Shown here one piece after another: positions 26,284 through 42,679 of a stretch of 64,000 nt of DNA (its first letter is position 1; every line of letters starts with the position of its first letter). Below the pieces are notes generated by a model. The model searched no databases. It was not told the origin of the DNA and was given only the letters and a program-made list of their open reading frames with translations. This DNA comes from Alteromonadaceae bacterium. Its GTDB lineage: Bacteria; Pseudomonadota; Gammaproteobacteria; Enterobacterales; Alteromonadaceae. Location of the stretch: positions 1-64,000 of the forward strand of contig JABXHM010000038.1 of NCBI GenBank assembly GCA_013373625.1, given 5' to 3'. The position numbers and the translations under genes are program-made.

Positions 26284-27330
26284 ATGATTTCTTTAACAAA
26301 CCCTAATAAGGGACCTAAAGCAAAGGTAGCGATAGTCGCTACACTGCTCGCTTCGCTTTTCAGCAGTGCTACATTGGCTGCGGAATCTGATGAAAAATCG
26401 CCACAAACGCCGGAATTTCTTACCTCAATAGAATACAAAAACCCGGAATGGAACCGCGATACCTATGCTCGCTTAGATGCTGATTTGGATCCAACGAAAG
26501 AAAAAGTAGGTTGGTTAAAGGGTAAAGTATTTGGCGTACGCCCTAACGAGTCCATCCGAGAACTGTTCATCATGGAAGGTTTTAGCGTTGTACGTACTAA
26601 GCAACTGGAAGATGGCAGTATCCGGCGCATGCTCAGGGAGGTTGTGTTTTATAAAGATATTGAAACCGGTGAAATTTTAAAAACTTGGCACAATCCCTAC
26701 ACCGACGAAGAAGTTCGTGTAGTGCCTATAGCCAACGATCCGTACAATTTTACTATTAGCTCTTACCTCAATGTACCCAATGCTTACGAAGGTACCGAAG
26801 CTGGTAAAAAAGCACCTAAAGTCCCATTCCTTATGGATTGGACTGAGGGGCCTAATGACACGATTATTCTCAATACAGGTATCAACCTGTTTTACCCCAA
26901 TCGCTTACAGCCAGAAAAATGGGTGCGAGAGTCAGCGGGTAAATTCAACCGAGTGTCAGAGCAATTTATCTACGTCTTTAAAAAATCAGACGTTACTGAT
27001 CCGAACAAAACGCATATCCCGGCGGTGGGCTCCTGGTCACGCATTACACCTTGGCTCCCGTGGATGTTAATGGGGAAGGCTGAAGGGCATGTTAGCTACT
27101 TTTCTACCTTTACGACTCTACCCGGTGGTATCGATGAACTACCTGCCGACATTCGTGAAGCCGCCCGAGCAATCGATCCTAAGTTTTTAAGTGCACCAAC
27201 CGAAGACTATGGTCCGAATGTTTCAAGCTTAGAAGCTTATGCAACGGAACAAGAACCGGCGCCTGTACCAGATGGCTGGGAGCCGCCAAAAGCGCCAGAT
27301 GAGCCGGCCTGGCCTCCTAAAAAGCAGTAA
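26284..27330 (+). CDS. DUF1838 family protein, Sec-exported
   Basis: About 348 residues with a Sec signal peptide (hydrophobic residues about 15-32, cleavage near ATLA). The DUF1838 domain has the sequence style shared by the other two copies: an acidic start, GEILKTWHNPYTDEEV, and late SWSRITPWLPWMLMGKAEGHVSY. The C-terminus is a Pro-rich tail (DGWEPPKAPDEPAWPPKK). The ATG at 26284 has a 7-base spacer from AGGA; an ATG at 26278 is too close to it. The gene is monocistronic and closed by a clear terminator. DUF1838 has no established function. This copy diverges from the two Tat-exported copies at 30001 and 39313. Confidence 0.85.
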   Translation: MISLTNPNKGPKAKVAIVATLLASLFSSATLAAESDEKSPQTPEFLTSIEYKNPEWNRDTYARLDADLDPTKEKVGWLKGKVFGVRPNESIRELFIMEGFSVVRTKQLEDGSIRRMLREVVFYKDIETGEILKTWHNPYTDEEVRVVPIANDPYNFTISSYLNVPNAYEGTEAGKKAPKVPFLMDWTEGPNDTIILNTGINLFYPNRLQPEKWVRESAGKFNRVSEQFIYVFKKSDVTDPNKTHIPAVGSWSRITPWLPWMLMGKAEGHVSYFSTFTTLPGGIDELPADIREAARAIDPKFLSAPTEDYGPNVSSLEAYATEQEPAPVPDGWEPPKAPDEPAWPPKKQ

Positions 27331-27341
27331 ACAGTCACCCG

Positions 27342-27371
27342 AAAACACCGCTATCCAGCGGTGTTTTTTTG
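27342..27371 (+). terminator. Rho-independent terminator after the first DUF1838 gene
   Basis: An 8-bp stem, ACACCGCT / AGCGGTGT, around loop ATCC is followed directly by a T-run. It begins about 14 bases after the stop codon. Confidence 0.92.
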
Positions 27372-27625
27372 GCAAAAGTTAATAAAGAAAGAGCGCTAGT
27401 AAGCAGGAGTATTTGGCCGTATTGCAATAGTTGGTCTTTTTCAAATCAAGTCTTGCTATGGCATTAAATGAGTCGCGGTTATCATGAATCACTAACGCTC
27501 ATTAACCGAGTAAACGATTATCTCTGGCCGTATCGGGTATTAAGTGGTCGTATGGCTAACAAGCGAAGTTATAAGCCGTGTAACAGTGTAAAAAGCACTG
27601 TTGTAGTCTGCGATGAAGCGACGGG

Positions 27626-27656
27626 TGTCAGGTAGTTTGTAAGTCTCTACCTGACA
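27626..27656. terminator. Hairpin downstream of minus-strand serine hydrolase
   Basis: The perfect 10-bp arms TGTCAGGTAG and CTACCTGACA are separated by an 11-base loop, 24 bases beyond the stop codon at 27680. There is no T-tract, so factor-dependent termination or RNA protection is possible. Confidence 0.5.
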
Positions 27657-27679
27657 GATTCACCGGTCAAATAGACAGT

Positions 27680-28846
27680 TTATTTTAAGATAAGGTTCGG
27701 TAATGCAGCGTCATCCCAGTCTTGGCTTGGCTGACCTATTCTTACTATTACGGTTTGTTGTGAAGGCACAATATACACCCTTTGCGCACCCGATCCGTCA
27801 AGATAATACACATCATCGGCGTTAAATGGTTGTTTAGCCGGCACGCTAAACGGACTGTTACGGCTATATTTTCGATTAGGATTGTGTGGACTTCCGCGCC
27901 ATATCTGCCATCCATAGTTGGGGTTCAATGCCGAGGGGCTGACCATGTCGCGAATAAACTTTGCGGGAATAATCTGCTTGTCACCAACCCTTCCTTCATT
28001 CATGATAAGTAATCCGATCCGCAACCAGTCTCTGGCTGATGCCTGCAGACAGCAGGAAGTGCGCGCTGAACCTTGTTCATGATCAAGCCACACACGAGCA
28101 TCCGACGCGCCCAAGGGTTGCCACAGACGCTGCGACAGATAGTCGGCGTAACGTAAACCTGTGGCCTGTTCTATCACCCAACTTAAATATTGAGGGTTGG
28201 CATTGGAATAGTGAAATTCAGCGTTTAAACCGTGCTCCATAGGCCAGTGTTGGTAAGCCTGTTTTAAGTCATCACCTAAAAATGTTTGCATGCCAACGCT
28301 GGTTGCTTCGGATGAGAACGCTGGTCCGCCTATACCACTGCTCATTTCCAATAACGATCGTAGTGGCGCATTACCCAAAGCGGTTGGTTTCACGTTCGTT
28401 AAAAAGTCGCTGACAGGTTGCGTTAAACTGGTAATTTTACCGTCCGCCAGGGCAGCGCCAACCAATAACGCTACCACTGTTTTATGCATAGAAGCGGTAT
28501 CGTAGCGAGATTGCTGGCTAAAGCCTGGCCAATAACGTTCATACCGAAGCGCACCATTCTGCCAGATGAGCAAAGCATAACTGTTGTATTGTGCAACCAG
28601 TTTTTCAGCCGCGGTATACTTGTCATTTTCGTTTAGTGCTTCAGGTAAAGGTGCAGGGTTGGTTGCGCCAGGAACCTGTTCCAGCGGGCTGTACCAATCC
28701 ACCGCAGCCACAATATTCTGCCACGGAAAATTTGCCTGACGTTGCTTGACCAACTCTGTTTGTGCTTCACTCGGCCATTTATTTGCTGCTTGCGATGTTA
28801 CAGAAAAACATAATAAAAATATTAGAATTATAAACTTATTTAACAT
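27680..28846 (-). CDS. Exported beta-lactamase-family serine hydrolase (class C/EstB type)
   Basis: About 388 residues from the ATG at 28846, which has AAGGTG upstream; upstream in-frame Mets (to 28888) lack support. A Sec signal peptide ends at about VTSQA. The penicillin-binding fold shows S-x-x-K as SMHK in YDTASMHKTV and Y-x-N as YSN in FHYSNANPQYL. It shares with the enzyme at 30933 an unusual SCC/GCC segment before RDWLRIGLLIMNEG, so they are paralogues. Likely an envelope esterase or amidase rather than an antibiotic-resistance enzyme. It diverges from the hydrolase operon at 29094 across a region with the TGACAATTGTCA dyad. Confidence 0.83.
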   Translation of the reverse strand: MLNKFIILIFLLCFSVTSQAANKWPSEAQTELVKQRQANFPWQNIVAAVDWYSPLEQVPGATNPAPLPEALNENDKYTAAEKLVAQYNSYALLIWQNGALRYERYWPGFSQQSRYDTASMHKTVVALLVGAALADGKITSLTQPVSDFLTNVKPTALGNAPLRSLLEMSSGIGGPAFSSEATSVGMQTFLGDDLKQAYQHWPMEHGLNAEFHYSNANPQYLSWVIEQATGLRYADYLSQRLWQPLGASDARVWLDHEQGSARTSCCLQASARDWLRIGLLIMNEGRVGDKQIIPAKFIRDMVSPSALNPNYGWQIWRGSPHNPNRKYSRNSPFSVPAKQPFNADDVYYLDGSGAQRVYIVPSQQTVIVRIGQPSQDWDDAALPNLILK

Positions 28847-28973
28847 TACACACCTTTGTATCACCATGCACAGAATAATCAATAACACTAAAAGAGCCCG
28901 GTAGACAACTCCTTAACAATTATCAATAATTGCGCCAATGTACAAAAAGTGTCGGACAAGGTATGTCATCAGG

Positions 28974-28990
28974 TTTGACAATTGTCATGG
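28974..28990. promoter_or_regulatory. Operator candidate TTTGACAATTGTCATGG (site 1)
   Basis: The core TGACAATTGTCA is a perfect 12-bp palindrome. The whole 17-mer recurs exactly at 54348, also between divergent genes. It lies 104 bases before the start at 29094 and 128 bases before the opposing start at 28846. A common dimeric regulator is the simplest explanation. Confidence 0.65.
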
Positions 28991-29093
28991 GTTCACCTTC
29001 GGATCTCGTTATGATAATTAATCTGTAAGGTAATTCCCCCTTGTTGAAAACATCGGTTGGTTACTTCAGTAAATTAATAAAAAAGAGTAACTT

Positions 29094-29984
29094 ATGGCAT
29101 TTAAATGTGACAGAAAAAGACGGCGGCTAAGCCTTTGGCCACTGCTCATCTTATTTTTACTGGTAGGTTGTAATCGAGCGTTAGCCAGATCATCGCAAGC
29201 CATTGAGCTATTTGTGGGCCAACGCCCGGTCACCGTTTACCACTGGCAACCAGATTCAAAGGTGAAAGGCACCATTCTTTTTTCACACGGGGCAGGTTCG
29301 TCGCCACTTAAATATGCACCATTGACTGAAAGTTGGGTGCGCCTCGGCTATGAGGTTTACGCGCCGCTCCATGTTGACTCTACGGATCACCCGCAAACCG
29401 ACAACTACAAAGGCCTGGCGTCCTGGACAACTCGTCTGCAGGATATGCAGCTACTCGCTGCTAATTTCGGTAGTGATGGTTACGTTGCGGCAGGCCATAG
29501 CTATGGGGCACTCACCGCGCTGGTTAAAGGCGGGGCTGAAGGACTTGTTCCTCCTGAGATAACCTCACCCTCTTTTGACCCGAAAGTGGAGTTGGTGCTG
29601 GCGTTTTCGCCCCCGCCGGCGATACCAGGATTTATTGAAAAATCAGGCTACAGTCACCTTGCCGTTCCAGCACTTATTCAGACCGGCACAGAAGATATTC
29701 CGATGGGATCAGCGACAACCTGGAAAGGGCATCTGGATGCCTATGATGCGGCTACCGAACGTGGCAATACGTATTCCTTGGTGTTGGATGACGTTGATCA
29801 CTATTTTGGTGGCTTGATTTGCCGTCCCGAGTTGCCGGGACCACATCAAAGCGAACAAATGAACCAAGCTCTGGATATTGCTGCACTCATACTTAATCGT
29901 TATGCACAGCAGAATATGCAGTCCGCTCAAGAACTAACACAGCGCTTAGGCAAGCACGGCAAAGCCTTGTTAAAACGTAAATAA
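29094..29984 (+). CDS. Alpha/beta hydrolase lipoprotein
   Basis: The 296-residue protein has a signal sequence ending in the lipobox LVGC, so it should be membrane-anchored on the periplasmic side. The hydrolase domain has oxyanion segment FSHGAGS, nucleophile Ser in AAGHSYGALTA and a late DDVDHYFGG carrying the probable catalytic His. It resembles dienelactone-hydrolase/platelet-activating-factor-acetylhydrolase-like exported esterases. It is the first gene of a tight operon with DUF1838 (16-base gap) and a serine hydrolase. Substrate unknown. Confidence 0.82.
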   Translation: MAFKCDRKRRRLSLWPLLILFLLVGCNRALARSSQAIELFVGQRPVTVYHWQPDSKVKGTILFSHGAGSSPLKYAPLTESWVRLGYEVYAPLHVDSTDHPQTDNYKGLASWTTRLQDMQLLAANFGSDGYVAAGHSYGALTALVKGGAEGLVPPEITSPSFDPKVELVLAFSPPPAIPGFIEKSGYSHLAVPALIQTGTEDIPMGSATTWKGHLDAYDAATERGNTYSLVLDDVDHYFGGLICRPELPGPHQSEQMNQALDIAALILNRYAQQNMQSAQELTQRLGKHGKALLKRK

Positions 29985-30000
29985 CCGGTAAGGAAAAACT

Positions 30001-30936
30001 ATGAGTCATCATCAATCAAGAAGACAGGCATTAAAACAGCTCGGAAGTTTAGGCGTGTCGGCGCTAGCGTTAGGTTCGGCTTCAACCGCTATGGCAGGGC
30101 CTGCAAATGCCGCAGGATCGCAACAGCAACTTGACTTATCGACACCAGAGAAGCGCTCGGCAATTACAACCAAAATTATGGGTAGTATCGGCAAGGAAGA
30201 AAAGCACACATTTTTACGTTTCCACATCTACGGGTACATGGGGGAGAACGTGGTACCATTTTTCTCCATGAACAACTATGTGGTGCAATACTGGACTCCC
30301 GACTCACGGGCAGGACATTACCAGCTTAAGCATTACGAGGTGGGCTACTACACTGAATTCGATACTGACAAGCCTATTACTCATTGGAAAAACCCGGTAA
30401 CCGGCAAAACTATTGAACTGGAAACCTTCATACTTGGGCCCGTTGGTCGGGTCTATACCCCTAATGGTATTATTGCTCCGGGGATTGCGCCCCAGCCTTT
30501 AAGGGTGAGCGTAATTGGCGATCGTGTTTACGTGCCAACCCAGTCTATCGAAGCTTTCCCAAATATGTTTAAACCCGAAGAGTGGCCCGAATTATCCAGT
30601 GGTGATAAAACTTACTGGGATTCCATGTCGACATACTCTGCCCCGCTTGCAGACGTACTTGATCCGGCATTAAAATCGGTTAAGGCAGAAATTCACATGC
30701 AAAACCTCACTAGCTGGCAACCCTTCCTGCGATTGGGTCAGTTAAAAGGTCGTAGTATGGCCCGAGCGTTCGGTCAAAATATTGCGGGTTTTCATGAGCT
30801 GTCACCAACGGTTCGCGCTGATTTCGAAAAGTATACGCCCGCTATTTTTGATACCAAAAACTGGACCGATATGCGCTTTGATTCCATCGACTTTTACAAC
30901 AAAGCACTGGCGGATAAGGCGAAGGCGAACCAATGA
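30001..30936 (+). CDS. DUF1838 family protein with Tat signal
   Basis: The 311-residue protein has a twin-arginine signal (SRRQALKQLG then a hydrophobic run to AMA at about residue 32), implying folding, perhaps with a cofactor, before export. The domain contains LRFHIYGYMGENVVPFFSMNNY, closely matching the copy at 39313. AAGGA precedes the ATG. It overlaps the next gene by four bases (ATGA), so a DUF1838/serine hydrolase partnership is likely. No catalytic motif can be named because the family is uncharacterised. Confidence 0.87.
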   Translation: MSHHQSRRQALKQLGSLGVSALALGSASTAMAGPANAAGSQQQLDLSTPEKRSAITTKIMGSIGKEEKHTFLRFHIYGYMGENVVPFFSMNNYVVQYWTPDSRAGHYQLKHYEVGYYTEFDTDKPITHWKNPVTGKTIELETFILGPVGRVYTPNGIIAPGIAPQPLRVSVIGDRVYVPTQSIEAFPNMFKPEEWPELSSGDKTYWDSMSTYSAPLADVLDPALKSVKAEIHMQNLTSWQPFLRLGQLKGRSMARAFGQNIAGFHELSPTVRADFEKYTPAIFDTKNWTDMRFDSIDFYNKALADKAKANQ

Positions 30937-32120
30937 AAAAATGTTTAACTATTGCCCTTGCGGGCATGGCGTTGATATCAGCGTGCAGTAATACACCAGA
31001 CTACGATGCTATGTATCTTGAACGGTTTAATACCGTTAAAGAAAATGGCGGAATGATGCCTGGCTATTCACCAATGGAGGTGGTATCCGGTGCCGAAAAT
31101 TATCAGCCGTTACCTCATGCCAACGCAACAGAGCAGCCTATTAGTAAGTCAGCGCTAGATAGCGCACAACGCTATGCAGAAGCCAACAACTCGACAGCTT
31201 TTATCGTCTGGCATGAAGGCAAAGTCCTGCGCGAAAGCTACTTCAATCATGCCAATCGCTCTACGCCAATCGTGTCTAAGTCTTTGTCGAAACCGCTTGG
31301 TGCTATTGCCATTGGCCGGGCTATTCAACTCAATAAAATCGATTCCACAGAGCAGTCAGTAGCGGATTTCATCACAGAATGGAAAGGCACCGCCAAGGAA
31401 AAGATTAAAATTAAACACCTGTTGAACATGACTTCCGGATTGCTGCCTCAGGGATACAGCACTGACCCGATGCACCCCTGGAATACGGCCTATCTTTCCT
31501 ATGAGCACGATAAGATTTTGATTCACGACTACCCGCTTGCCAGTGACCCTGGAAGTGAATACGGCTATAGCAACGCGTCAGCTGAACTGGTAGCAATTAT
31601 TATTGAGCGCGCGACTGGCCAGCGTTACGCTGACTTCATCGGTCAGCAAGTATTGGCCCCGATAGGCGCAGCAGGAGGTGAAATTTGGGTCAACAGAGAG
31701 GGCGGCCTTGCACATTCTGGCTGTTGCATGACATTGCCCGCCGAAAGCTGGTTGCGTCTGGCCATCTTACTGCTCAATGATGGTGTCGTGAAAAACACCC
31801 GTTTGCTCCCCGAACACTATGTTGATGTGATGAAAACGCCATCGAACCAGAATGTACACTATGGGCTAGGTGTATGGCTGGGATCGCCTTATGCTGAGCG
31901 ACGCGGATTCACCGGCACAGGTGGCCCTGGCCCTAAGGTGCTTCATTCTGCGCCGTATATCGACCCGTTGTTATTTTTATTCGACGGTAATTCAAATCAA
32001 GTTGTATATATTTCACCCACCTATAACACGGTAATTTTGCGGGTTGGCAAAACACCACCCAAACAGCCTGAATGGGACAACAGCATTTTGCCAAATATAT
32101 TGCTCAGCGAATATCTGTAA
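30933..32120 (+). CDS. Beta-lactamase-family serine hydrolase lipoprotein
   Basis: The 395-residue lipoprotein (lipobox ISAC) has the penicillin-binding/class C fold. SLSK in VSKSLSKPLGA is the S-x-x-K active site and YSN in YGYSNASAEL is the Y-x-N motif. Like the enzyme at 27680 it has GCCMTLPAESWLRLAILLLND. Its start overlaps the DUF1838 stop in an ATGA. It probably cleaves an ester or amide of the imported substrate in the envelope. Confidence 0.83.
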   Translation: MKKCLTIALAGMALISACSNTPDYDAMYLERFNTVKENGGMMPGYSPMEVVSGAENYQPLPHANATEQPISKSALDSAQRYAEANNSTAFIVWHEGKVLRESYFNHANRSTPIVSKSLSKPLGAIAIGRAIQLNKIDSTEQSVADFITEWKGTAKEKIKIKHLLNMTSGLLPQGYSTDPMHPWNTAYLSYEHDKILIHDYPLASDPGSEYGYSNASAELVAIIIERATGQRYADFIGQQVLAPIGAAGGEIWVNREGGLAHSGCCMTLPAESWLRLAILLLNDGVVKNTRLLPEHYVDVMKTPSNQNVHYGLGVWLGSPYAERRGFTGTGGPGPKVLHSAPYIDPLLFLFDGNSNQVVYISPTYNTVILRVGKTPPKQPEWDNSILPNILLSEYL

Positions 32121-32346
32121 ACCGCCTGAGCTTTCCATGATAATTCGTTGCGGGCCTGACCAAATGGGTTAGGCTCGGATGTTCCTTATCACCCTTTTCG
32201 CCTAGTCAAATATCTACATTTCCTATCCAACCTTTTAATACTAGCGTCAAATTAACGCGCATCGGCCGTCAATATTGAGGCTTGTCAACATAAATTGCAG
32301 TGTTTTTTTTTAAACAAATATTCGACTTTTATAATTTAAGCCGGGT

Positions 32347-32360
32347 TTGATAAAAATCAT
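32347..32360. promoter_or_regulatory. FNR/CRP-family-like box TTGAT-N4-ATCAT
   Basis: TTGATAAAAATCAT matches 9 of 10 fixed positions of the FNR consensus. It lies about 150 bases before the TonB-dependent receptor start in a 384-base intergenic region with no other gene. See also 25868 and 50176. Confidence 0.45.
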
Positions 32361-32504: not shown

Positions 32505-34874
32505 ATGCGTCACTCTTATAATGAACACACAATGAAAGTCACCCTCATCGCTGCAATGATAGCTAGTGTCTGCCAGACCGGCTGGGCCCAGGAGGCCACT
32601 GCTGTTAGTGAAAGTAATGATTTGGTCATCGAGAAAATCGAAGTTACGGCTCGCAAACGCTCAGAGAGCCTACAAGAAGTTCCAGTTGCTGTATCTGCAC
32701 TCACCAGTGATGATATTGAAAAGCAAGGTCTGGTGAGTGTGCAGGATTTGTCTGACAGCGCACCGGGTTTGGTTGTGTCCAATAACTTCTCAGGTAAAAC
32801 CGATCGTTCCGTACAGTCTTTTGCGCTGCGTGGATTTTCACCTAGCAGCGGAGCTGAAGCCACCGTTTCCATGTTCATTGACGGCGTTCCTGTCACCTCA
32901 ACAACGGCATTATCATCTATCGGTTCACCGGAACGGATTGAAATACTGCGAGGACCACAAAGTGCTTATTTTGGCCGCAACACCTTTGCCGGTGCTATCA
33001 ATGTCGTCAACAGAAAGCCTAATCAGGAATGGGCTGGCTCAATTAGCGGCACGGCAGGCAATTATGGTTATACTCGCTTACGTGGTGAAGTAGAGGGGAC
33101 ACTGGTTGATGATCAACTATCTTTCCGATTAGCCGGAGAAACCTACGAAAAAGACGGTGCATGGGATAACCACTTCAAGGATGGTGGCCGCCTTGGCGAT
33201 CAGCAAACTGATATGGCGAGTTTGTATATAGAAGCACAACCTACGGATAGCTTCTCTCTAAAAGCCTTTGGTTTTTATTCAAAAGATGAGGATGGCCCTG
33301 CGCCATCAGCCTTTATCTCAGCGGTAGATATCCTTAATTATGAGGATATGTCAGTCCTGGTAGAGGGGCAGTCAAATTGCGTGATCAACGGCAACCCCTA
33401 TTTTTGCTCAGTGCCTACTAAAAGTGATCCGCTATCTTACAACACTGATGCGTCACAAGAGCTAAGGGACTTAATCAAATCACCTACAAATCGCGTCGCT
33501 AGCACTAGTCTGCTTGACAACTACGGAATGGGACGCGAATTTGTGCACGGGCATTTGGTGGCTGATTGGGAGATCACCGATGAGATAACCCTGTCTACTT
33601 TAACGGGCTTTAATAATGAAGAATGGGTACTGTTGAATGATATCGATCATTACGGTAATGATTACTTCAATTACCCCTTTTTAGTTGATTCGAAAAACGA
33701 GGATGTTTCTCAGGAATTGCGTTTAACGTATCAGGGGGATGGTCCACTCTCGGGCACTGTGGGGTTGAGCTATTTGGATGCGGAAAAAAGCGGCACTCAG
33801 ACAACCGCAATATCGTTTAATCCAGTGCCAAGTGAAGCTTCTTCTGCCGGCAGCAACAAATCAACAACGCACGGGCTGTTCTTTGGCCTGAGCTATGAAA
33901 TGACTCAGCAGGCTTCGTTAAGTGTTGAAGGTCGCTTTCAGAAAGATAAAATCGCGGCTTATAACCCAGATGGTAGTTTGGTCGCAGAAGAGACATTCGA
34001 TAACTTTTTACCTCGGGTCATTCTTGATTACAAAGTCAGTGACGACCTAATGGTCTATGGCTCCTACTCAAAAGGCGTTAACCCGTCGGCATTTAATGCC
34101 GGAGTACTTGCGCTGCCTGATAACTTCCGCGAACAGGCAGAAGCAAACGGGTTGTCTCTTACCGTGAAGCCAGAAGAAGTCGTTAACTACGAAGTTGGTA
34201 TGAAAGGTTCATTGCTAAACGGTTCTCTTAATTACGCGCTTGGTGCCTACTATGCACAATGGAATAAACAAATTAACCGTATTAACCTGGTATTTGTTGA
34301 TCCAGAAGATCAAACCCAAACTCAGAGCTTTTCCGGTGTGGCTAATGCCGGTGATGTAGATTTGTGGGGGCTGGAGTTTGAAAGCCACTGGATGCTGACC
34401 AGTAGCTGGCGTCTAAATGTGTCAGCCGCCTATGTAGGCTCGGACATCAATGAATATGTTAATCCTACTCTGACAGCCCTGTCCGGTGTTACTGACTTCA
34501 GCGGCAAAGAGCAGGCGGGCGTGTCCAAACTCTCCGGCAATCTGGGCGTGCAATACACAGGCGTTATTGCCGATGAGTATGATTACTTTTTACGTTCGGA
34601 TTATGTTTATAAGTCAGGCCAGTGGCTCAATGCGGCAAACTTCTTAAAAACAGAGGATATTCATAAAGTTAACCTGCGCGCCGGTGTGTATATCGGTGAT
34701 CTGGAATTACAAGCTTACGTGAAAAACGTATTTGATAATGATGAATACACGTTTGGCTATGACTACTATGCCTTTGACCCTACTTATGCCTACTTCAATA
34801 TTAATTCCGGGCTGGTAATGAGTCTCCAGGAACCACGTACATTTGGTATTCAGGCAAAATATTCGTTTTATTAA
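32505..34874 (+). CDS. TonB-dependent outer-membrane receptor 1
   Basis: The 789-residue receptor has a signal peptide ending at GWAQ, a TonB-box-like IEKIEVTARKRSESLQEVPV segment, a plug domain (about 45-165, with RGFSPSSGAEATVSMFIDGVPV and RGPQSAYFGRNTFAGAI), and a 22-strand barrel ending in the typical aromatic FGIQAKYSFY. The start has AAGGTAGG upstream. It belongs to the large iron-independent receptor group common in marine carbohydrate and aromatic scavenging. It should import the substrate handled by the adjacent esterases and glycosidase. Confidence 0.93.
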   Translation: MRHSYNEHTMKVTLIAAMIASVCQTGWAQEATAVSESNDLVIEKIEVTARKRSESLQEVPVAVSALTSDDIEKQGLVSVQDLSDSAPGLVVSNNFSGKTDRSVQSFALRGFSPSSGAEATVSMFIDGVPVTSTTALSSIGSPERIEILRGPQSAYFGRNTFAGAINVVNRKPNQEWAGSISGTAGNYGYTRLRGEVEGTLVDDQLSFRLAGETYEKDGAWDNHFKDGGRLGDQQTDMASLYIEAQPTDSFSLKAFGFYSKDEDGPAPSAFISAVDILNYEDMSVLVEGQSNCVINGNPYFCSVPTKSDPLSYNTDASQELRDLIKSPTNRVASTSLLDNYGMGREFVHGHLVADWEITDEITLSTLTGFNNEEWVLLNDIDHYGNDYFNYPFLVDSKNEDVSQELRLTYQGDGPLSGTVGLSYLDAEKSGTQTTAISFNPVPSEASSAGSNKSTTHGLFFGLSYEMTQQASLSVEGRFQKDKIAAYNPDGSLVAEETFDNFLPRVILDYKVSDDLMVYGSYSKGVNPSAFNAGVLALPDNFREQAEANGLSLTVKPEEVVNYEVGMKGSLLNGSLNYALGAYYAQWNKQINRINLVFVDPEDQTQTQSFSGVANAGDVDLWGLEFESHWMLTSSWRLNVSAAYVGSDINEYVNPTLTALSGVTDFSGKEQAGVSKLSGNLGVQYTGVIADEYDYFLRSDYVYKSGQWLNAANFLKTEDIHKVNLRAGVYIGDLELQAYVKNVFDNDEYTFGYDYYAFDPTYAYFNINSGLVMSLQEPRTFGIQAKYSFY

Positions 34875-35040: not shown

Positions 35041-37413
35041 ATGAAAACTATCCATTACTGGCTGTTAATCAGCGCACTTTTTACCTTGGTTGGTTGTTCT
35101 GAAACGCCTGCTGAAGCCAAATCATTTAATGATATGAACCAAAATGGCACACTTGAAACCTATGAAGATACGAGCCTGAGCCCGGCAGTGAGAGCGGCTG
35201 ATTTACTCAGTCGGCTATCCATCGAACAGAAAATCAAGTTAGTTAACGGCACTGGTATGTCGATGGCAGGAGACGGCTCGCAAAAAGTGCCCGGTGCCGC
35301 TGGTTCTACCTATGCGTTGCCAGACTTTGGCATTCCGGCTGTGGTGCTCTCTGATGGTCCTGCTGGCGTTCGAATTAAACCGACCCGCGATAACGATCCT
35401 AATACATACTATGCAACAGCCTTTCCAATTGCCACAGCGATTGCGTCGAGCTGGAATACCGAGCTTGCTGAGCAGATTGGGGCGGCGATGGGAGATGAAG
35501 TGAAAGAGTACGGGATAGACGTGTTTTTAGCGCCGGCGCTAAATATACAGCTTAACCCAAGAGGCGGCCGTAACTTTGAATATTATTCAGAAGACCCTTT
35601 CATTAGCGGTATGATTGCGGCATCTGTCGTCAACGGTGTTGAAAGCAACGGCGTGGGGGCAACTATCAAGCACTTTGTCGCCAATCAGGTAGAAACCAGC
35701 CGTATGGTGCTTAACGCCGAAGTTGATGAACAAGCCATGCGTGAAATTTACTTGAAAGGATTCGAAATTGCAGTAAAACAAAGTCAGCCATGGGCCGTCA
35801 TGAGTTCTTACAACAAATTAAACGGCACTTACACTTCACAAAGTAAAGCACTACTGAGTGACATATTGCGTGATGAGTGGGGCTTTACAGGCGTGGTAAT
35901 GACCGATTGGTTTGCTGGTGACGATAGCGCTGCACAAATGCAAGCAGGTAACGATTTAATTATGCCGGGCACACCGGCAAATCATCGTCAAATTAGCGAG
36001 GCTTTACTTGACGGTAGTCTGTCGGAAGCTGAACTCGATCGAAATATCACCCGTATCATCGCAATGATATTTAAGACGCCAGCAATGCAGCAGTACGCGT
36101 ATTCTGATAAACCGGATTTGACGGCTCATGCGCAGATTGCCCGTCAAGCTGCCGCCGAAGGGGTCGTTTTATTACGTAACAACGATGCGACATTGCCGCT
36201 AAAAGGTCTGACGCGAGTCGCTACCTTTGGTAATACCTCTTATAACTTTATTGCAGGAGGCACTGGCAGTGGTGATGTGAATGAAGCGTACACAGTCTCT
36301 CTGGTAGATGCGCTTGAAGCCAATGGTTTTAAAATTAACTCGCAGCTACAGAAAACCTATGAGCAATATGCGCAAAAAGAGAAAGCCAAGCAGCCCGAAA
36401 AAACCAGTTTTTTTCAGTTCATACCGCCTATTGCGGAAATGCCCGTTAGCGAAACGTATGCACAACAATTGGCCAAACAAGAAGACATCGCAGTTATTAC
36501 ATTAGGACGTAATTCAGGCGAATTCCAGGATCGTAAGGTCGCAGGGGATTTTTATCTGACCGATACTGAGCTGTCACTGATAGCCACGGTCGCTGATGCC
36601 TTCCATGCTGAAGATAAAAAAGTTGTGGTTATTCTCAACATTGGTAATACCATCGAAACGGCCTCTTGGAAAGACAAGGTGGATGCAATTGTATTGCCTT
36701 GGCAAGGCGGCCAGGAAGCTGGCAACGCCGTTGTCGATGTGTTGACTGGCAGTGTGAATCCATCCGGTCATCTGGCAGTTACCTTCCCGATGACTTACGA
36801 GCAAATTCCTTCGGCTAATACCTTTCCGGGTAAAATCGTCGATCCGGAAGTCATTCAAAATCCTTATCTCAATGCTTTGCCCAACGGACAACGCTCAGTA
36901 ATCGCGTACCAAGAGGGTATTTATGTGGGTTATCGCTTTTTTGATAGTTTTAAACAAGAGGTTTCGTACCCCTTTGGCTACGGATTGTCCTATGCAAACT
37001 TTGCGCTCTCTGACCTCAATCTAAGTCAAAACGGGAGTGAGTATCAGGTAAGTGTTACGGTGAAAAACACCAGTCAGGTAGCTGGGAAAGAGGTAGTGCA
37101 GTTATACGTCAGTGCGCCGGAGGGTAAACTGACTAAAGCCGCGCAAACCTTGCAGGGATTTGCCAAGACCCGTTTGCTGGCACCCAATGAAACCCAGACA
37201 CTAACCATTGCCATGGATACTCTTCAGCTGGCTTCATTTGACGCAAACCGCCATCAGTGGATTGCTGAAGCCGGTGACTATCATATAAAAATAGGCCGCT
37301 CGTCTCGTAATATTGTCTGGCAAGACACTATTACTCTACCAGACGAACTCACGCTATCCACAACGCTCACGCCACTGCCGACCAGTATACCTGTTAAAAC
37401 GCTTAAGCATTAA
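35041..37413 (+). CDS. GH3 beta-glycosidase lipoprotein
   Basis: The 790-residue protein has lipobox LVGC and an EF-hand-like NQNGTLETYED linker. The GH3 N-terminal barrel contains KHFVANQVETSR and the nucleophile Asp in GVVMTDWFAGDD. The GH3 C-terminal domain and a fibronectin-III-like domain (VTVKNTSQVAGKEVVQLYVSAP) follow. Family activities include beta-glucosidase and xylosidase; substrate is not predictable here. It follows the receptor gene on the same strand, suggesting that the imported molecule is glycosylated. Confidence 0.93.
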   Translation: MKTIHYWLLISALFTLVGCSETPAEAKSFNDMNQNGTLETYEDTSLSPAVRAADLLSRLSIEQKIKLVNGTGMSMAGDGSQKVPGAAGSTYALPDFGIPAVVLSDGPAGVRIKPTRDNDPNTYYATAFPIATAIASSWNTELAEQIGAAMGDEVKEYGIDVFLAPALNIQLNPRGGRNFEYYSEDPFISGMIAASVVNGVESNGVGATIKHFVANQVETSRMVLNAEVDEQAMREIYLKGFEIAVKQSQPWAVMSSYNKLNGTYTSQSKALLSDILRDEWGFTGVVMTDWFAGDDSAAQMQAGNDLIMPGTPANHRQISEALLDGSLSEAELDRNITRIIAMIFKTPAMQQYAYSDKPDLTAHAQIARQAAAEGVVLLRNNDATLPLKGLTRVATFGNTSYNFIAGGTGSGDVNEAYTVSLVDALEANGFKINSQLQKTYEQYAQKEKAKQPEKTSFFQFIPPIAEMPVSETYAQQLAKQEDIAVITLGRNSGEFQDRKVAGDFYLTDTELSLIATVADAFHAEDKKVVVILNIGNTIETASWKDKVDAIVLPWQGGQEAGNAVVDVLTGSVNPSGHLAVTFPMTYEQIPSANTFPGKIVDPEVIQNPYLNALPNGQRSVIAYQEGIYVGYRFFDSFKQEVSYPFGYGLSYANFALSDLNLSQNGSEYQVSVTVKNTSQVAGKEVVQLYVSAPEGKLTKAAQTLQGFAKTRLLAPNETQTLTIAMDTLQLASFDANRHQWIAEAGDYHIKIGRSSRNIVWQDTITLPDELTLSTTLTPLPTSIPVKTLKH

Positions 37414-37430
37414 TGCAGCGTCTACGGTGT

Positions 37431-37456
37431 TTATCCCTGCCTTAACGCAGGGATAA
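37431..37456 (+). terminator. Terminator-like hairpin after GH3 gene
   Basis: The perfect 10-bp arms TTATCCCTGC and GCAGGGATAA enclose a CTTAAC loop 17 bases after the stop. No T-tract follows, so it is a weak or factor-assisted terminator. Confidence 0.55.
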
Positions 37457-37624
37457 TAACGTGCTGGACAGTTACTAACTTGCTATTTTAATTATGTAAA
37501 TTCAAGCATGATTCACTCGTTACATCTGCGTTTTCTGGTCGACTATCTTCAAGCCAGAAAAACAAAGCGTACTCAGGTACGTTGAGCGTCAGAGCAAAGG
37601 CATTGATAGTGGAACATAAGGCAA

Positions 37625-37650
37625 GAAGCCCTCAGTGCGAGGGCGTTTTA
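37625..37650. terminator. Bidirectional terminator hairpin before the carboxylesterase stop
   Basis: GCCCTC and GAGGGC pair around AGTGC. TTTTA follows on the plus strand. It lies 16 bases beyond the minus-strand carboxylesterase stop (37660) and can also end transcripts from the GH3 side. Confidence 0.6.
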
Positions 37651-37659
37651 TCGGCAAGA

Positions 37660-39249
37660 TTACTGGCGTGTTAATCCGGTCAGCTCATTCAGATAATCGA
37701 GCCTGTCAATCCAACTGTCTGGCCGGGCTTGGCTACCTAATGGTGAGAACTGCATAACAACACCTTCTTTAGCTTGTGGCCATTTGGGTAAGGCAGGCGC
37801 GTTGGGGTGCCCGTTTTTAGCAAAATTGGTCCAGTAGTTTATCATTTGTGAAGCGACTTGCTTTTGCATGGCATCGGGGGCTACCGGATCGGCTTGTTCA
37901 CCCAAAAAATTACCAAATGTATAGGGCACATCACCGGCGTGCAGCGCGCCGTAATTCACTTCACCATTGAGCATTCTGCGTGTTGAATACTTACCTGGCA
38001 TTGAAAAACGGTAGCTATATACAGGCACTTGTTGCTTTGCTAGTGTGTTTACGAGCGCTCGTGCCTGAGAGTGAAACGAGAAATCACTGAGCATAAATAG
38101 GTTACGCGTCGCTTCATCGTCGTAGTAGGGGGTCATTTTCGTCAGCGTATCGTCTGACATATAACCGCGCAACACCTCTAGCTGAGATGTCCCGAAGACT
38201 GACTCAGCGTCAGTGGTCCCCACTATCATCGGTACCTTTATTTGGCGACCCTGAGCGTATATTTGTGCCAGTGTGTCGGTGAACATAGTCCCATCAACTG
38301 CTAACTGAATAAACTGGGTGTAATCTGTTGCACCGATAATGGCCTCTGGCGGAGTGGCTCTTAGTTCTGCAAGTGTTGCTTGGGTATGGTTTAACTGGCG
38401 AGCAATATCAACGCCGATCTGTTCAACGCCGTCAGCAGGGTCCTTGCTCTGACTGGCTAGGGTTTGCATCATTCTCAGTCCATAGCCAGATTGACTGATG
38501 GCGCGATTAAACAAGCCATCTGCCAAAGGTGTTGCCATTAATGCCATCACTGACGCCGCGCCGGCAGATTCTCCAAAAATGGTTACCCGATTCGGATCGC
38601 CACCGAATTGAGCAATGTGCTGCTGAACCCATTTTAGCAAAGCCAACTGATCCATGATGCCGTAGTTGTATAACAAGCCGTCGTCGGGGTTTTGTTCACT
38701 CAATTGTGGATGAGCGAAAAAACCTAACCGACCAAGGCGATAGTTAAAGCTTACAACCAGTACATCCTGATTAGCCAGATTCCCTCCCCAACTTACTGCT
38801 CGTGAGCCTGAGCCTGATGTCAGTCCGCCACCGTGGATCCAAACCATCACCGGGAGCTGGTCTGCTTGAGTATTGGGTCGGTAGATATTTAGATAAAGGC
38901 AATCTTCGCTTTCTGACGTTGCAAAATCTTGCTCTTTTGGCCAACCTTGCATACGGGGCGCCTGATAACACTGGCTGCCATAGGTGTCTGCGACAAAATG
39001 CGCCGGTAAAGCTGGTGCAGGCTGAGGAGCCCGCCAGCGTAGGTCACCCACTGGTGCCGCCGCATAGGGTATGCCCCGGAATTCAATCAGATCGTTTTTT
39101 ACCACGCCGGTAACACTGGCTTGGCGTAGGTTAATTGTAGTGAAGTCGGTATCTGCCTCCGTTGAAGAAGGTGGATTATGGCAGGCAACTAGCATTCCAC
39201 AACTGGCCCAAAATAGTACTTTCAATAATTTAATCATAAGCTTACACAT
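37660..39249 (-). CDS. Type-B carboxylesterase lipoprotein
   Basis: The 529-residue esterase has an N-terminal lipobox LVAC, the family signature SEDCLYLNIY, oxyanion motif HGGG in MVWIHGGGLTSGSG, nucleophile Ser228 in FGESAGAAS and the late His in ALHAGDVPYTFGNF. It is last in a minus-strand operon with TonB receptor and DUF1838 (64-base gap). A second start four codons in (39237) is possible; neither has a good ribosome-binding site. It is a close paralogue of the enzyme at 61630. Confidence 0.9.
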   Translation of the reverse strand: MCKLMIKLLKVLFWASCGMLVACHNPPSSTEADTDFTTINLRQASVTGVVKNDLIEFRGIPYAAAPVGDLRWRAPQPAPALPAHFVADTYGSQCYQAPRMQGWPKEQDFATSESEDCLYLNIYRPNTQADQLPVMVWIHGGGLTSGSGSRAVSWGGNLANQDVLVVSFNYRLGRLGFFAHPQLSEQNPDDGLLYNYGIMDQLALLKWVQQHIAQFGGDPNRVTIFGESAGAASVMALMATPLADGLFNRAISQSGYGLRMMQTLASQSKDPADGVEQIGVDIARQLNHTQATLAELRATPPEAIIGATDYTQFIQLAVDGTMFTDTLAQIYAQGRQIKVPMIVGTTDAESVFGTSQLEVLRGYMSDDTLTKMTPYYDDEATRNLFMLSDFSFHSQARALVNTLAKQQVPVYSYRFSMPGKYSTRRMLNGEVNYGALHAGDVPYTFGNFLGEQADPVAPDAMQKQVASQMINYWTNFAKNGHPNAPALPKWPQAKEGVVMQFSPLGSQARPDSWIDRLDYLNELTGLTRQ

Positions 39250-39312
39250 AATTAGATGAATTAGAATCCATATCTGATATAAACAGGATATGGTGCAACG
39301 ACCGCGACTAGG

Positions 39313-40227
39313 TTATTCAGGAGTGTGAGCGTTCATGTAGTCGAGCATATCTATGCGTGGTGTTTGCCACGACTCGTAGTTAAAGATCTCGGGGGTTTTA
39401 GCCTCAATTCCTTTGAGTACAGACTTGGGCAACTCATCGAGAGAAGCGAGTTTTGTACCATAGGCCCGGCCATAGGTTCGCCCTTCATACCCGCCCATAC
39501 CCAGCCACGGATGCCAACTGCCGAGGTTTTGAAATTGTAAAAAGGCACGTACATTCGTCACGTTAGGATCAGCGACATCTGCCACGTCGGCACTTGCCAC
39601 TAGCAGCGAATCCCAGTAACGGGTTTTTCCTGAAGAGCTTTTTGGCCATTTTTCCGGCGTGAAAGGATTGGGCATAGAAAGGGCAGCTTGGGTTGGCATA
39701 AACAACTTATTACCCAGGATTTCCATGCGAAGCACTTCAGGTTTTAGTTCGGCTGCCCCATCGGTAACGATACCGTCTGGACCAATTTCGGTTACAAGCG
39801 GGCCGCCGATGAATTCCCATACTTTGCGCTTCTCATGCGTAATCGGGTTTTCCCATACATCCAGTACCTCATCGGTATCAAATTTACAATACACCCCGCA
39901 TTCTGCTCCGACGGTCGCGAAGTTTCCATTTTCGAGCGCAGACCAGCGTGTCAGATTTAAATTGTTCATAGTGAAAAAGGGGATTAGATTGCCGTCATTC
40001 ATGTATCCATAGATATGTAAACGATAAAACGTGTAGACCAATTCATTTCTAGTGGAGCCGAGCACTTTAGCCCGGATCTTGGCACGCGATGACGGATCAG
40101 TAAGATTTAACGATGGTGTAGGCGTTGCCTTGGATGCGAAGGCGCGGCTGCCAAGTGCACCGAGCGCAGCAGTCCCTAGTGAGCCTTTCAGAAAACGACG
40201 GCGCTTGGTTCGAATGGTGTTAATCAT
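39313..40227 (-). CDS. DUF1838 family protein with Tat signal (second copy)
   Basis: The 304-residue protein has a twin-arginine signal (KRRRFLKGSLG followed by a hydrophobic run to AFA). It shares with the copy at 30001 the block YRLHIYGYMNDGNLIPFFTMNN, the MPTQAALSMPNPFTPEKWP segment and the C-terminal GRAYGTKLASLDELP. It sits between a TonB receptor and a carboxylesterase in one operon, mirroring the plus-strand module at 29-35 kb. Function unknown. Confidence 0.87.
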   Translation of the reverse strand: MINTIRTKRRRFLKGSLGTAALGALGSRAFASKATPTPSLNLTDPSSRAKIRAKVLGSTRNELVYTFYRLHIYGYMNDGNLIPFFTMNNLNLTRWSALENGNFATVGAECGVYCKFDTDEVLDVWENPITHEKRKVWEFIGGPLVTEIGPDGIVTDGAAELKPEVLRMEILGNKLFMPTQAALSMPNPFTPEKWPKSSSGKTRYWDSLLVASADVADVADPNVTNVRAFLQFQNLGSWHPWLGMGGYEGRTYGRAYGTKLASLDELPKSVLKGIEAKTPEIFNYESWQTPRIDMLDYMNAHTPE

Positions 40228-40297
40228 AGTTCATTCCCTGCAAAAAAGGGGAAGTTTGGCTTCCCCTGGGTAGAGTTGAAATCAAAGACTGGTGTGA

Positions 40298-42679
40298 CTA
40301 AAACCAGTATCTAAAGGTTGCTCCGATTTGGCGCTTGCGAGCCAGTGCAACTTCGACACCGGCAAGTTGGAAAAGGTAAGGGTCGGCTGCACTATCAGCC
40401 TGTGTTCGAGCCCAGGTCGGGGTATCGTCATCAAGCAGGTTTGTTACATAGACAGAAGCAGACCAGTCATCCCGGTTGATTCCGGCGCGTAAATTAATCA
40501 GCGTTCGTGAAGGTAGCCAAGACAAATTTGTAGAGTCAGTGTAACGTCGTCCCTGATACGTCGCATCGATGCGGGTATACCATTCAATATCTCCCAGCAT
40601 GACACCGAAGTACTGGGCGTAGAGCGCACCGCTGAGTTTAGCCACCAAAGGCATATCCTTGCCCTTGGCATCATCTTCACCAAAAGTACTGACATAGTTA
40701 GCATCATAAAGCGCCTTGGTTACCTCGGTATCCGCGTAAGATGCACTCCCACCAATGGTAAAATCTGGTGTCAGTAAATAAGCACCATCTAGCTCGATAC
40801 CTTTAGTATTGCTGTCTCCGGAGACAAAGGGAACGGTGTTAAAGACTTCACCTTCTGGCGCGGGTTCGAGGATGATTGAACCGTCGCCGTCAAGGTCTAC
40901 CTGCAACGAGGTAATGGTTTGACGGTCCTGCCATTCGAGATAATACACGGAGGTATTAAGGTACCAGCGCCCATCATCACTATAGTGTTTCCAGCCTGCT
41001 TCGTAGTTTTTCACGGTCGCCTCTGGTGCCGAGTCGTTGATGCCGTTTTCTTCAGCTACGACTCGCTGTTCTTCGGTTAGCTGAAAATAAATGGAATAAC
41101 CCTGGGTAGGCTGGTTACCTTCGGCATAATTGAGATAAAAGTGATTTTCATCGTCCATTTGCCAGCGCAGCAGTACTCTGGGCAATGTAGCTGGCGTCTC
41201 AATTTCATACTCTGTTGGGGTACCCACGCCGCTGGTGATCTTATCGAACTGACGTCTGGCTTCTATATTCAGCGTCAAATTGTCGGTGATATCATAGCCC
41301 AACGAGCCGAAAATGGAGTTGGTTTGCGTATTATCGGTAGTGACTACAACGGGAGAGAAAGGCCCACCGGCACCATCGCCAAACACGGCACCATACAAAA
41401 AGGCACCACCTGCTGAAAAATCAAAATCCAGTCTAGATGCACCAAGCATCCATGTTAAACGCTGGTCAGCAGGCGACTCTATCCGTAACTCATAACTTTG
41501 CTGAGTTTGCTCATTAACACTATAGGTTTGGTAGCTGTCTGTCGGTGTGCGTTCAAAATCAAACAGTGACATCACTTCGTGATCTTGATCACTGGCGATT
41601 AACGTCGCCGAATAACCATCGAGGAATTCCCATTCCAGGGTAGCAGTAAGCATGCTCTTATCCATCCATAACCCATGTTTATCAACCGGCAGAGCATCAA
41701 GTGTAGACGCTAAATTATCTGTATTGATGCCGATAGGGCCACTCGGCGCTTTAATTTCGCCACAGTAACGCATTGCCGTTTGTTCAAGTGTTAATTCCGG
41801 TGGCAGACCAAACATTGACCGGGGTTGTGGTTCAGTAAACGGGCCACAGTTAAAGTCGGTATACCGACCCGTTAACTGAGTAGCCGCCTCGCTATCATAG
41901 TCATCACTATTGCTGTAACGCAGCTTAAATGAAAGGTTGTCGGTAGGGGTAAAATACAACGCGCCGGAAAAGTATTCCTGGTCGGTTGCGCCAAGATCAC
42001 CGCCAAGACTGTTCTTATAAAATCCGTCAAAGTCACTTTTTTGATAAGCCACACGTGCAGACAACATATCGTCAATCAGTGGGCCTTCAACCATTCCCTG
42101 AAACTTACGCTCACCATATGAACCAACGGTCACGCCGACGTTCCCACCAAACAGGTCGCTGGGATTGCTGGTGACCATGCTAATAGCACCACCAAACGTC
42201 GCACGTCCAAACAACGCTGACTGCGGTCCTTTAATAACTTCAACCCGGGCAAGATCTTCAGTTCCTATAGCGGCTGGTGTCCCTAAAATGGGCACGCCAT
42301 CCAAAAAAACAGTCACTAAGTCGCGGCGGTTGTCACCGGTCGCAGCTGCCTGTGTCATTCCTCGCACAGAAAAATCGCTGTTAGCTCGGGAGGTACCTCC
42401 GTTCATGGTTAAGCCGGGTGTAAAGTCAGTGAGCTCAGAGAGTTCATCAATACCACGAGCCTCTAACTGATCAGCACTAAACGCCTGAATACTTAGCGGA
42501 CTTTCCTGAATGGTTTCTTCGCGCTTACGTGCTGATACAACGATTTTTTCAAGCATTGCAGGAATTTCTTTCTCGTCGGCGTTTGTTTCTTCCTGGGCTA
42601 ACGCGGTGGGTGTAGTGGAAAGTGAACTCACCACCGCAGTGGTCAGTACTGAAAGTTTATACTTCCTGTAAAGCTTCAT
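40298..42679 (-). CDS. TonB-dependent outer-membrane receptor 2
   Basis: About 793 residues from the ATG at 42679, which has GAGGA upstream; a TTG five codons earlier is not preferred. It has a signal peptide ending at ALAQ, an IVVSARKREETIQESPLSI TonB-box region, a plug with RGMTQAAATGDNRRD and KGPQSALFGRATFGGAI, and a barrel ending in IGATFRYWF. It opens the operon with DUF1838 and carboxylesterase. Dyad-like CGCCA/TGGCG elements and a LytTR regulator gene lie just upstream. Confidence 0.93.
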   Translation of the reverse strand: MKLYRKYKLSVLTTAVVSSLSTTPTALAQEETNADEKEIPAMLEKIVVSARKREETIQESPLSIQAFSADQLEARGIDELSELTDFTPGLTMNGGTSRANSDFSVRGMTQAAATGDNRRDLVTVFLDGVPILGTPAAIGTEDLARVEVIKGPQSALFGRATFGGAISMVTSNPSDLFGGNVGVTVGSYGERKFQGMVEGPLIDDMLSARVAYQKSDFDGFYKNSLGGDLGATDQEYFSGALYFTPTDNLSFKLRYSNSDDYDSEAATQLTGRYTDFNCGPFTEPQPRSMFGLPPELTLEQTAMRYCGEIKAPSGPIGINTDNLASTLDALPVDKHGLWMDKSMLTATLEWEFLDGYSATLIASDQDHEVMSLFDFERTPTDSYQTYSVNEQTQQSYELRIESPADQRLTWMLGASRLDFDFSAGGAFLYGAVFGDGAGGPFSPVVVTTDNTQTNSIFGSLGYDITDNLTLNIEARRQFDKITSGVGTPTEYEIETPATLPRVLLRWQMDDENHFYLNYAEGNQPTQGYSIYFQLTEEQRVVAEENGINDSAPEATVKNYEAGWKHYSDDGRWYLNTSVYYLEWQDRQTITSLQVDLDGDGSIILEPAPEGEVFNTVPFVSGDSNTKGIELDGAYLLTPDFTIGGSASYADTEVTKALYDANYVSTFGEDDAKGKDMPLVAKLSGALYAQYFGVMLGDIEWYTRIDATYQGRRYTDSTNLSWLPSRTLINLRAGINRDDWSASVYVTNLLDDDTPTWARTQADSAADPYLFQLAGVEVALARKRQIGATFRYWF

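Follow-up and report, generated by a model that had tools for sequence, protein, structure and literature searches.

Two types of described system come closest to the locus considered here. One is the TonB-receptor-led utilisation locus, for example the polysaccharide utilisation locus, and the other is the nicotinate/nicotine lower pathway formed by the Nic and Hsp enzymes. At the level of protein fold the comparison is with nitrobindin, CpeS/CpcS, BFA1 and OssO, which we take to belong together as calycins. The locus lies in a stretch of 64,000 nucleotides, the window (positions 1 to 64,000 of the forward strand of contig JABXHM010000038.1, assembly GCA_013373625.1, from an Alteromonadaceae bacterium), and is marked by three genes of the DUF1838 family (PF08894) that stand among genes for TonB-dependent receptors and esterases. 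An earlier note on this DNA had described an envelope system and held that the function of the family is not established; in agreement with the latter, no function is named for DUF1838 or PF08894 in the openly licensed PubMed Central papers found. The one paper found that mentions the family gives ArtU of the aurantimycin cluster as DUF1838 in a table row (PMC5031334). We consider it reasonably probable that the three window proteins, together with a fourth copy at C10:103930 on the same contig, work in the periplasm as the entry stage of a catabolic island that has spread horizontally and acts on a bulky, esterified natural compound, an N-heterocycle. This reading is carried by the gene content, the export-type N-termini and a predicted barrel, and by the joint presence of DUF1838 and pathway genes within the genus as well as in Parahaliea, Novosphingobium and a Caulobacterales metagenome-assembled genome (MAG); all of this is read from sequence.

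Calls of open reading frames (ORFs) and Pfam concur with the earlier note on the positions of the three DUF1838 genes and on the gene order of two modules. Membership in DUF1838 was set by the Pfam gathering cut-off of 25 bits, which the three proteins of the window and also the fourth copy exceed. The plus-strand module runs from an alpha/beta hydrolase (29094..29984; PF12697, 27.7 bits) through DUF1838_b (30001..30936; PF08894, 56.5 bits) and the PF00144 serine hydrolase SH_b (30933..32120; by Pfam) to TonB-dependent receptor 1 (32505..34874; PF00593 and PF07715) and an accessory GH3 glycosidase (35041..37413; by Pfam). A gap of 16 bp separates the alpha/beta hydrolase from DUF1838_b, which overlaps SH_b by 4 bp. 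On the minus strand, TonB-dependent receptor 2 (40298..42694; PF07715, 69.5 bits) is followed by DUF1838_c (39313..40227; PF08894, 78.6 bits) and a carboxylesterase (37660..39249; PF00135, 346.8 bits), and the two modules converge on the gap 37413-37660. The hydrolases at 29094, 30933, 35041 and 37660 have lipobox-like N-termini, judged by what we take to be the lipobox motif. By eye, DUF1838_b and DUF1838_c carry Tat-type signals (SRRQALKQLG and KRRRFLKGSLG) and DUF1838_a (26278..27330, plus strand; PF08894, 154.9 bits) a Sec-type signal, as had been proposed. The further claim that this Sec-exported DUF1838 stands alone stood for the signal and not for the neighbourhood. A PF00144 serine hydrolase that had been missing from the gene list, SH_a (27680..28888, minus strand; 99.1 bits), adjoins DUF1838_a; its SxxK motif, presumably, reads SMHK. 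A whole-genome search added the fourth copy, DUF1838_d (C10:103930-104961, minus strand; 93.6 bits; Tat-type), which lies outside the window about 64 kb past the third. The natural reading of these arrangements is that DUF1838 proteins, receptors and hydrolases would act on the same imported compound.

For DUF1838, the models predict a closed beta-barrel with high confidence. AlphaFold2 models were built from alignments of window and fetched proteins and reached a pLDDT of 95.4 and a pTM of 0.90 for DUF1838_b and a pLDDT of 90.0 for DUF1838_a. DSSP assigns them consecutive long antiparallel strands and terminal helices. The top soluble matches to one model were BFA1 (Z 10.7; 3.0 A, 140 aligned), Rv2717c (Z 9.7; 3.4 A, 144), nitrobindins (Z 8.5-8.7) and the spirocyclase OssO (Z 8.0). 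The other model matched the bilin lyase CpeS (Z 8.3; 3.3 A, 139) and Ycf58 (Z 7.7), and also BFA1, Rv2717c, DUF3598 and nitrobindins. Overall, the calycin-type matches span Z 7.0-10.7, a middling range given that best matches have a stated background of 7-8, and a family missing from these match lists is not thereby excluded.

Over 58 sequences, N131, P132 and G250 are invariant, while E113 is Glu in 56/58, W239 is Trp in 57/58 and Y117 is Tyr in 48/58. His, Cys or Asp reaches at least 75% in no column of this alignment, and a metal site is not conserved across the family. Haem-binding nitrobindin has a conserved proximal His, and no family-wide haem ligand is found in DUF1838 over the same sequences. 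Position H75 is His in 14 of the 21 rows of the b and c subfamilies and Asn in the other seven, and it may be a ligand residue specific to these subfamilies. DUF1838_b and DUF1838_c are also the lowest-scoring members in the window and are without the NDPxN-type stretch found in DUF1838_a and most other rows. Export N-termini across the family, judged by eye and with a regular expression, are of Tat, Sec and lipoprotein type, and Sec and Tat signals differ between relatives as close as 61% identity. It had been proposed that Tat export hints at a cofactor-bearing enzyme. We reject this on the mixed signals and the lack of family-wide His, Cys or Asp ligands.

From the fold, the conserved residues and the export signals we infer that DUF1838 may be a periplasmic ligand-handling protein or a cofactor-free enzyme. 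That the DUF1838 proteins are true enzymes and not carriers, namely cofactor-free isomerases, cyclases or lyases that would use the conserved Glu and Tyr in the barrel and take one periplasmic intermediate each, deserves appreciable weight, short of an even chance. The frequencies of E113 and Y117 and the presence of OssO among the fold matches agree with such a role, and several paralogues per island would suit several reactions. On the other side, a PDB sequence search with DUF1838_b and DUF1838_a returned no match up to E = 1, and the other near-invariant residues, N, P, G and W, could be structural.

The modules form one end of an 87-kb island (C10:26278-113201) of 68 ORFs. Genes were called on the whole own contig and compared with DUF1838-bearing stretches of the congeners G002, G011 and G014. 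Reciprocal best hits were obtained for 56/68 island ORFs in G002, 44/68 in G011 and 24/68 in G014; 61/68 have one in at least one congener, and none of the 37 flanking ORFs has one in any of the three. Part of this sharpness follows from the design, as DUF1838 and PuuE-like matches had guided the choice of congener stretches. Gene order differs between congeners and content is retained, with identities in G002 and G011 of 77% and 45% for DUF1838_a and 59% and 52% for the alpha/beta hydrolase, and of 73% in G002 for receptor 1. A tandem pair of PuuE-like genes and DUF1838 are found in the identical 4 of 36 congeners, and the Amdase gene in three of these four DUF1838-bearing congeners and in none of the other congeners sampled. 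As all four could descend from one acquisition, we treat this as a pattern and not as four independent events. For the GH3 glycosidase, a homologue was found in G002 and none in G011, G014, Parahaliea or the other sets compared, and we rejected it as a core part. The description as an envelope system proved too narrow, because the genes travel with about 50 other island genes that are by family mostly cytosolic enzymes. A free-standing envelope system is likewise rejected, as the modules lie within a larger island found in other genomes. The island is probably mobile.

Beyond the genus, Parahaliea maris (Halieaceae) matches 56/68 island ORFs and 0/10 flanking ORFs. The matches extend across about 98 kb on a single contig; 48 of the 56 have at least 40% identity, and a few of the weaker ones probably represent paralogues. 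Each of the four DUF1838 types is present (a 46%, b 66%, c 67%, d 75% identity). The order DUF1838_b then SH_b (56%) is kept, as is receptor 2 (59%) then DUF1838_c then the carboxylesterase (52%), with a DUF1330 gene between the last two. The Parahaliea hydantoinases are 84-85% identical to those of the island, receptor 1 is 59% and the alpha/beta hydrolase 53% identical. In Novosphingobium, two plasmids and two further genomes carry a reduced island of 25 to 34 of the 68 ORFs. Identities there are 61-64% for DUF1838_a (three Novosphingobium), 49-52% for DUF1838_c and 39-41% for receptor 1. Novosphingobium P6W has the order DUF1838-DUF1838-TonB receptor with a serine hydrolase alongside, and two Novosphingobium plasmids from PLSDB hold three DUF1838 genes each within 16-18 kb. 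The Caulobacterales MAG matches 20/68 island ORFs, and there DUF1838_b (50%) adjoins SH_b (44%); genes for FAD monooxygenase, Amdase, PuuE-like protein and isochorismatase come next. A set of named loci was fetched with a b/c-subfamily query, and in it the b and c subfamilies are therefore over-represented.

The other island enzymes suggest N-heterocycle breakdown, each single assignment being a family resemblance only. A direct Pfam scan covered 48/68 island ORFs; part of the other 20 were assigned through a scanned homologue. The PuuE-like protein of the window (45533..46444, minus strand) is 82% identical in Parahaliea and 74% identical in Novosphingobium. Its TIGR03212 score lies below the allantoinase PuuE cut-off (151.6 vs 424.6 bits), and a separate allantoinase with full score is encoded elsewhere in the genome (G000:C13:58527). 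By analogy we read it as a putative cyclic-imide hydrolase; passages of PMC9304392 place in the wider family the cyclic imidase HxnM, which opens an imide in nicotinate use. Beside it on the minus strand lie an Amdase/maleate-isomerase family protein (46446..47192; PF17645, 64.9 bits), whose PDB relatives are maleate isomerases and arylmalonate decarboxylases, and an FAD monooxygenase (47205..48398) with PnpA and HspB as nearest solved relatives. On the plus strand, a lyase of the methylisocitrate/2,3-dimethylmalate lyase superfamily (58252..59130; PF13714, 140.6 bits; 70% identity in Parahaliea, 64-65% in Novosphingobium) has petal death protein and dimethylmalate lyase among its solved relatives and scores below the PrpB cut-off of TIGR02317 (260.5 vs 354.4 bits). 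It is followed by an isochorismatase-family amidohydrolase (59155..59793; PF00857, 123.6 bits; 81% in Parahaliea, 64-68% in Novosphingobium), whose nearest relative in the PDB is N-carbamoylsarcosine amidohydrolase. The HMG-CoA-lyase family protein at 59953..60966 (minus strand) exceeds its NF004283 cut-off (284.6 vs 246 bits).

The remaining island genes in the window complete this picture. Two aldehyde dehydrogenases are encoded on the minus strand, one at 43971..45497 (89% identity in G002, 73% in G011, 67% in Parahaliea) and one at 48504..50039 (76% in Parahaliea, 67-68% in Novosphingobium), as is an FAD_binding_4 oxidoreductase (52593..54215; 62% in Parahaliea). A second FAD monooxygenase on the plus strand (54356..55609; 49-50% in Novosphingobium) has 3-hydroxybenzoate 6-monooxygenase and salicylate 1-monooxygenase as its best NCBIfam rows, both below cut-off. 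It is followed on the same strand by an MFS_2 transporter (55649..57052) and an iron-type alcohol dehydrogenase (57071..58234). A second carboxylesterase (61630..63192, plus strand) falls into the same homology cluster as that at 37660 and is 55% identical to the Parahaliea gene that the one at 37660 also matches. For the LytTR regulator (42868..43692, minus strand) no homologue was found in the islands compared.

Taken as a whole, the island encodes three PuuE-like proteins, isochorismatase-family amidases, hydantoinase A/B and two LeuCD pairs (the latter two scanned on relatives), together with a CoA-transferase III, an amine oxidase, cytochrome c, ETF proteins and an NCS1-type permease. Apart from GH3, the scans matched no glycosidase family. 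Three island families have no Pfam match: cluster 15 (two copies), cluster 16 and a 248-residue protein at C10:76015. The enzymes fit a route in which an imide or lactam ring is opened, ammonia is released, a branched maleate is hydrated and the product is cleaved into pyruvate plus a short acid. For such a cytosolic route from imide through maleamate and branched dicarboxylate to pyruvate, no described aerobic match was seen in the openly licensed PubMed Central papers found.

An alternative substrate, which we judge unlikely, is a pyridine- or nicotine-like alkaloid, with the island acting as a variant form of the nicotinate/nicotine lower pathway. Such a pathway would agree with the monooxygenase at 47205, with the presence of an amidase and of maleate-isomerase relatives in the island, and with the precedent of HxnM for imide opening. 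The amine-oxidase family gene stands beside the cytochrome c gene (C10:76837-78639), an arrangement that we liken, as an assumption of ours, to NicA2 and its cytochrome. However, the top solved relatives of the amine oxidase are monoamine oxidases, with 6-hydroxynicotine oxidases lower among the best 60 of 95 matches, and among the 48/68 ORFs scanned directly with Pfam we find no NicX-type dioxygenase, xanthine-dehydrogenase-type hydroxylase or Rieske protein. The maleate route is not known to need LeuCD or an alkylmalate-type lyase, and the two LeuCD pairs and the lyase would be superfluous.

What we infer in the preferred reading is that the island has spread horizontally, how its steps follow one another, what its enzymes do, that DUF1838 handles a ligand and that the substrate is a bulky esterified N-heterocycle. 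The TonB receptors would import the compound, and lipoprotein and secreted esterases would trim it in the envelope. In the periplasm, the calycin-like DUF1838 barrels may bind and pass on its successive forms, or isomerise or cleave them without a metal. Handling of successive forms would account for four deep paralogues being kept together. The small rings would then enter through inner-membrane permeases of the NCS1 and MFS types and be opened in the cytosol by imidase- and hydantoinase-like enzymes. The ring-opened product would be de-amidated by the isochorismatase-family amidase, hydrated by the LeuCD-like enzymes and finally split by the alkylmalate-type lyase.

A bolder version, which we hold to be very unlikely, makes the island a complete bacterial route that uses tetrapyrroles, such as breakdown products of chlorophyll, haem or bilins, as food. 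The receptors would import the pigment, the DUF1838 barrels would hold and process it in the periplasm much as bilin lyases and nitrobindins hold their ligands, and the esterases would strip its ester groups. Dialkylmaleimides and lactams would be released and opened by the imidase- and hydantoinase-like enzymes, and LeuCD-like hydration followed by a 2-ethyl-3-methylmalate-type lyase would yield pyruvate together with a short acid. With a tetrapyrrole as substrate, the receptors and esterases, the chemistry of branched maleimides and the likeness of DUF1838 to barrels that bind bilins or haem would all be accounted for. No tetrapyrrole-specific enzyme was found in the 48/68 island ORFs scanned directly with Pfam.

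The distribution of DUF1838 is sporadic. The family occurs in the own genome and 3/35 other congeners (60-genome sample), in 9/369 genomes of the class and 4/398 of the phylum, the own genome counted in both, and in 0/14 control genomes. A tree and the conservation count above were made from 58 proteins out of 63 rows found; L055 and L061 (same contigs as L041 and L052), L070 and L071 (partial) and L053 (too divergent) were left out of the tree, and the complete fourth copy took the place of a cut-off DUF1838 piece in L031. The four own copies fall into four separate supported subfamilies, by which a recent tandem duplication is rejected. In subfamily a the own copy groups with G002 and next with Novosphingobium plasmids, in b with G303 and next with sphingomonad and Caulobacterales proteins, in c with Parahaliea and next with Novosphingobium, and in d with Novosphingobium profundi. 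A label test for imide genes nearby on this tree was uninformative, with 500/500 shuffles as low. By hand count, at least three DUF1838 copies are present in 8/10 genomes or records behind the loci, all ten chosen for having DUF1838. Parahaliea has seven in a stretch of 63 kb, and W01, W02, G795 and G797 (Novosphingobium) have three each in 16-18 kb.

Neighbours of DUF1838 were counted by hand in 11 whole genomes that together have 26 such genes, after removal of one fragment hit each from G226 and G242. The rows are not all independent, as G303 and G398 belong to a single genus and some genomes contribute more than one gene. A TonB receptor lies within 5 kb of 9/26 genes (3.3 expected, P = 0.003), a PuuE-like gene within 10 kb of 5/26 (0.46 expected, P = 8e-5) and an aconitase-family gene within 10 kb of 4/26 (0.8 expected, P = 0.008). 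The recurrent pairing with receptors and envelope hydrolases claimed for the family is seen again in Parahaliea and in Novosphingobium P6W. As a survey of genome neighbourhoods, the count gives receptor enrichment above chance and no rule: 17/26 genes, some on short contigs, have no receptor within 5 kb, and 21/26 no PuuE-like gene within 10 kb. The neighbour link is strong for the window subfamilies and not for the whole family, because many members elsewhere have neither partner. The family as a whole is not tied to the pathway, since many of its members lie outside such islands. Close homologues (E<=1e-90) of the window PuuE-like protein occur in 4/369 class genomes, the own included, and three of the four have DUF1838. 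As a separate observation, a PuuE-like protein of 66% identity is encoded at G333:C9:272103-272990, in a genome of another family with no DUF1838 hit in the class sample; the genes around it may represent the pathway in a form that lacks the DUF1838 front end.

Several findings weigh against the catabolic island with a DUF1838 front end. Outer-membrane barrels match the models equally well (Legionella porin Z 10.1, OpcA Z 10.0), and the calycin label therefore rests on middling Z scores; Foldseek TM-scores by query length are 0.35 at most. Among 20 proteins compared with NCBIfam, the HMGL protein alone is over its cut-off in the matches listed. GH3, ETF, ETFQO, LytTR, 4HBT and MmgE genes are unmatched in the Parahaliea stretch. 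The DUF1838 genes of G065, G105, G224, G425 and G685 have no PuuE-like gene within 10 kb, and G333 has the PuuE homologue and no DUF1838. Loci in which DUF1838 lacks imide-type genes, the PuuE homologue alone in G333 and the reshuffled gene order between congeners would all agree with unrelated catabolic operons piled up in a plastic region, where DUF1838 and imide-type genes became neighbours through an insertion hot-spot. We regard such a pile-up as improbable, as the same large set with four DUF1838 types recurs in Parahaliea maris and reduced sets in Novosphingobium and the Caulobacterales MAG. The shared presence pattern in the 36 congeners points the same way, though one shared acquisition could explain it.

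Further observations concern the surroundings of the DUF1838 genes. Twice in the part of the island beyond the window, a protein of about 410 residues with a methyltransferase fold stands beside one of 120-137 residues that has no Pfam match (G000:C10:105194-106797 and 90047-91635). A gene of the methyltransferase-pair type lies within 0.6 kb of DUF1838 in L031, L034, L039, L074 and L075, and the partner of the methyltransferase-fold protein was not found in L040, L042 and L063. Another family that lacks a Pfam match, with proteins of about 220-230 residues (G000:C10:68869-69561 and 97157-97816, also beyond the window), is present within 10 kb of DUF1838 in L034, L035, L040 and L047. Just outside the island, a catalase-peroxidase (PF00141; window 22788-25034) has no counterpart in the other islands compared. 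Upstream of the island, ketosynthase-type genes and a phosphopantetheinyl transferase (window 17434-20608) are perhaps part of a polyketide or aryl-polyene cluster.

With the catabolic island, some DUF1838 subfamilies gain a definite context, a large pathway that occurs in Gammaproteobacteria and, in part on plasmids, in the alphaproteobacterial genus Novosphingobium. The function of DUF1838 becomes a question of growth and deletion with a short list of substrates. If the substrate were a pigment or a vitamin-like ring, the island would show bacterial recycling of a very abundant ring compound.

Compared with the known systems, the DUF1838 proteins would resemble calycin-type barrels in their predicted closed antiparallel barrel; such barrels are among the top soluble matches of the two models, in a Z range that outer-membrane barrels also reach. 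They differ in sequence, with 4-9% identity over the aligned part, in their extra C-terminal helices and, compared with nitrobindin, in having no family-wide conserved His for haem. Like TonB-receptor-led utilisation loci, the island brings together a receptor, hydrolases of the surface or periplasm, permeases of the inner membrane and enzymes of the cytosol. It differs from these loci in that its GH3 gene is unconserved and its cytosolic genes point to chemistry of an N-heterocycle and a branched dicarboxylate. With the nicotinate/nicotine lower pathway it has in common an HspB-like monooxygenase, an amidase, maleate-isomerase family proteins and an imide opening like that of HxnM. A NicX-type enzyme and a molybdenum hydroxylase are not seen in the 48/68 ORFs scanned, whereas the island adds hydantoinase A/B, two LeuCD pairs, a CoA transferase III and an alkylmalate-type lyase.

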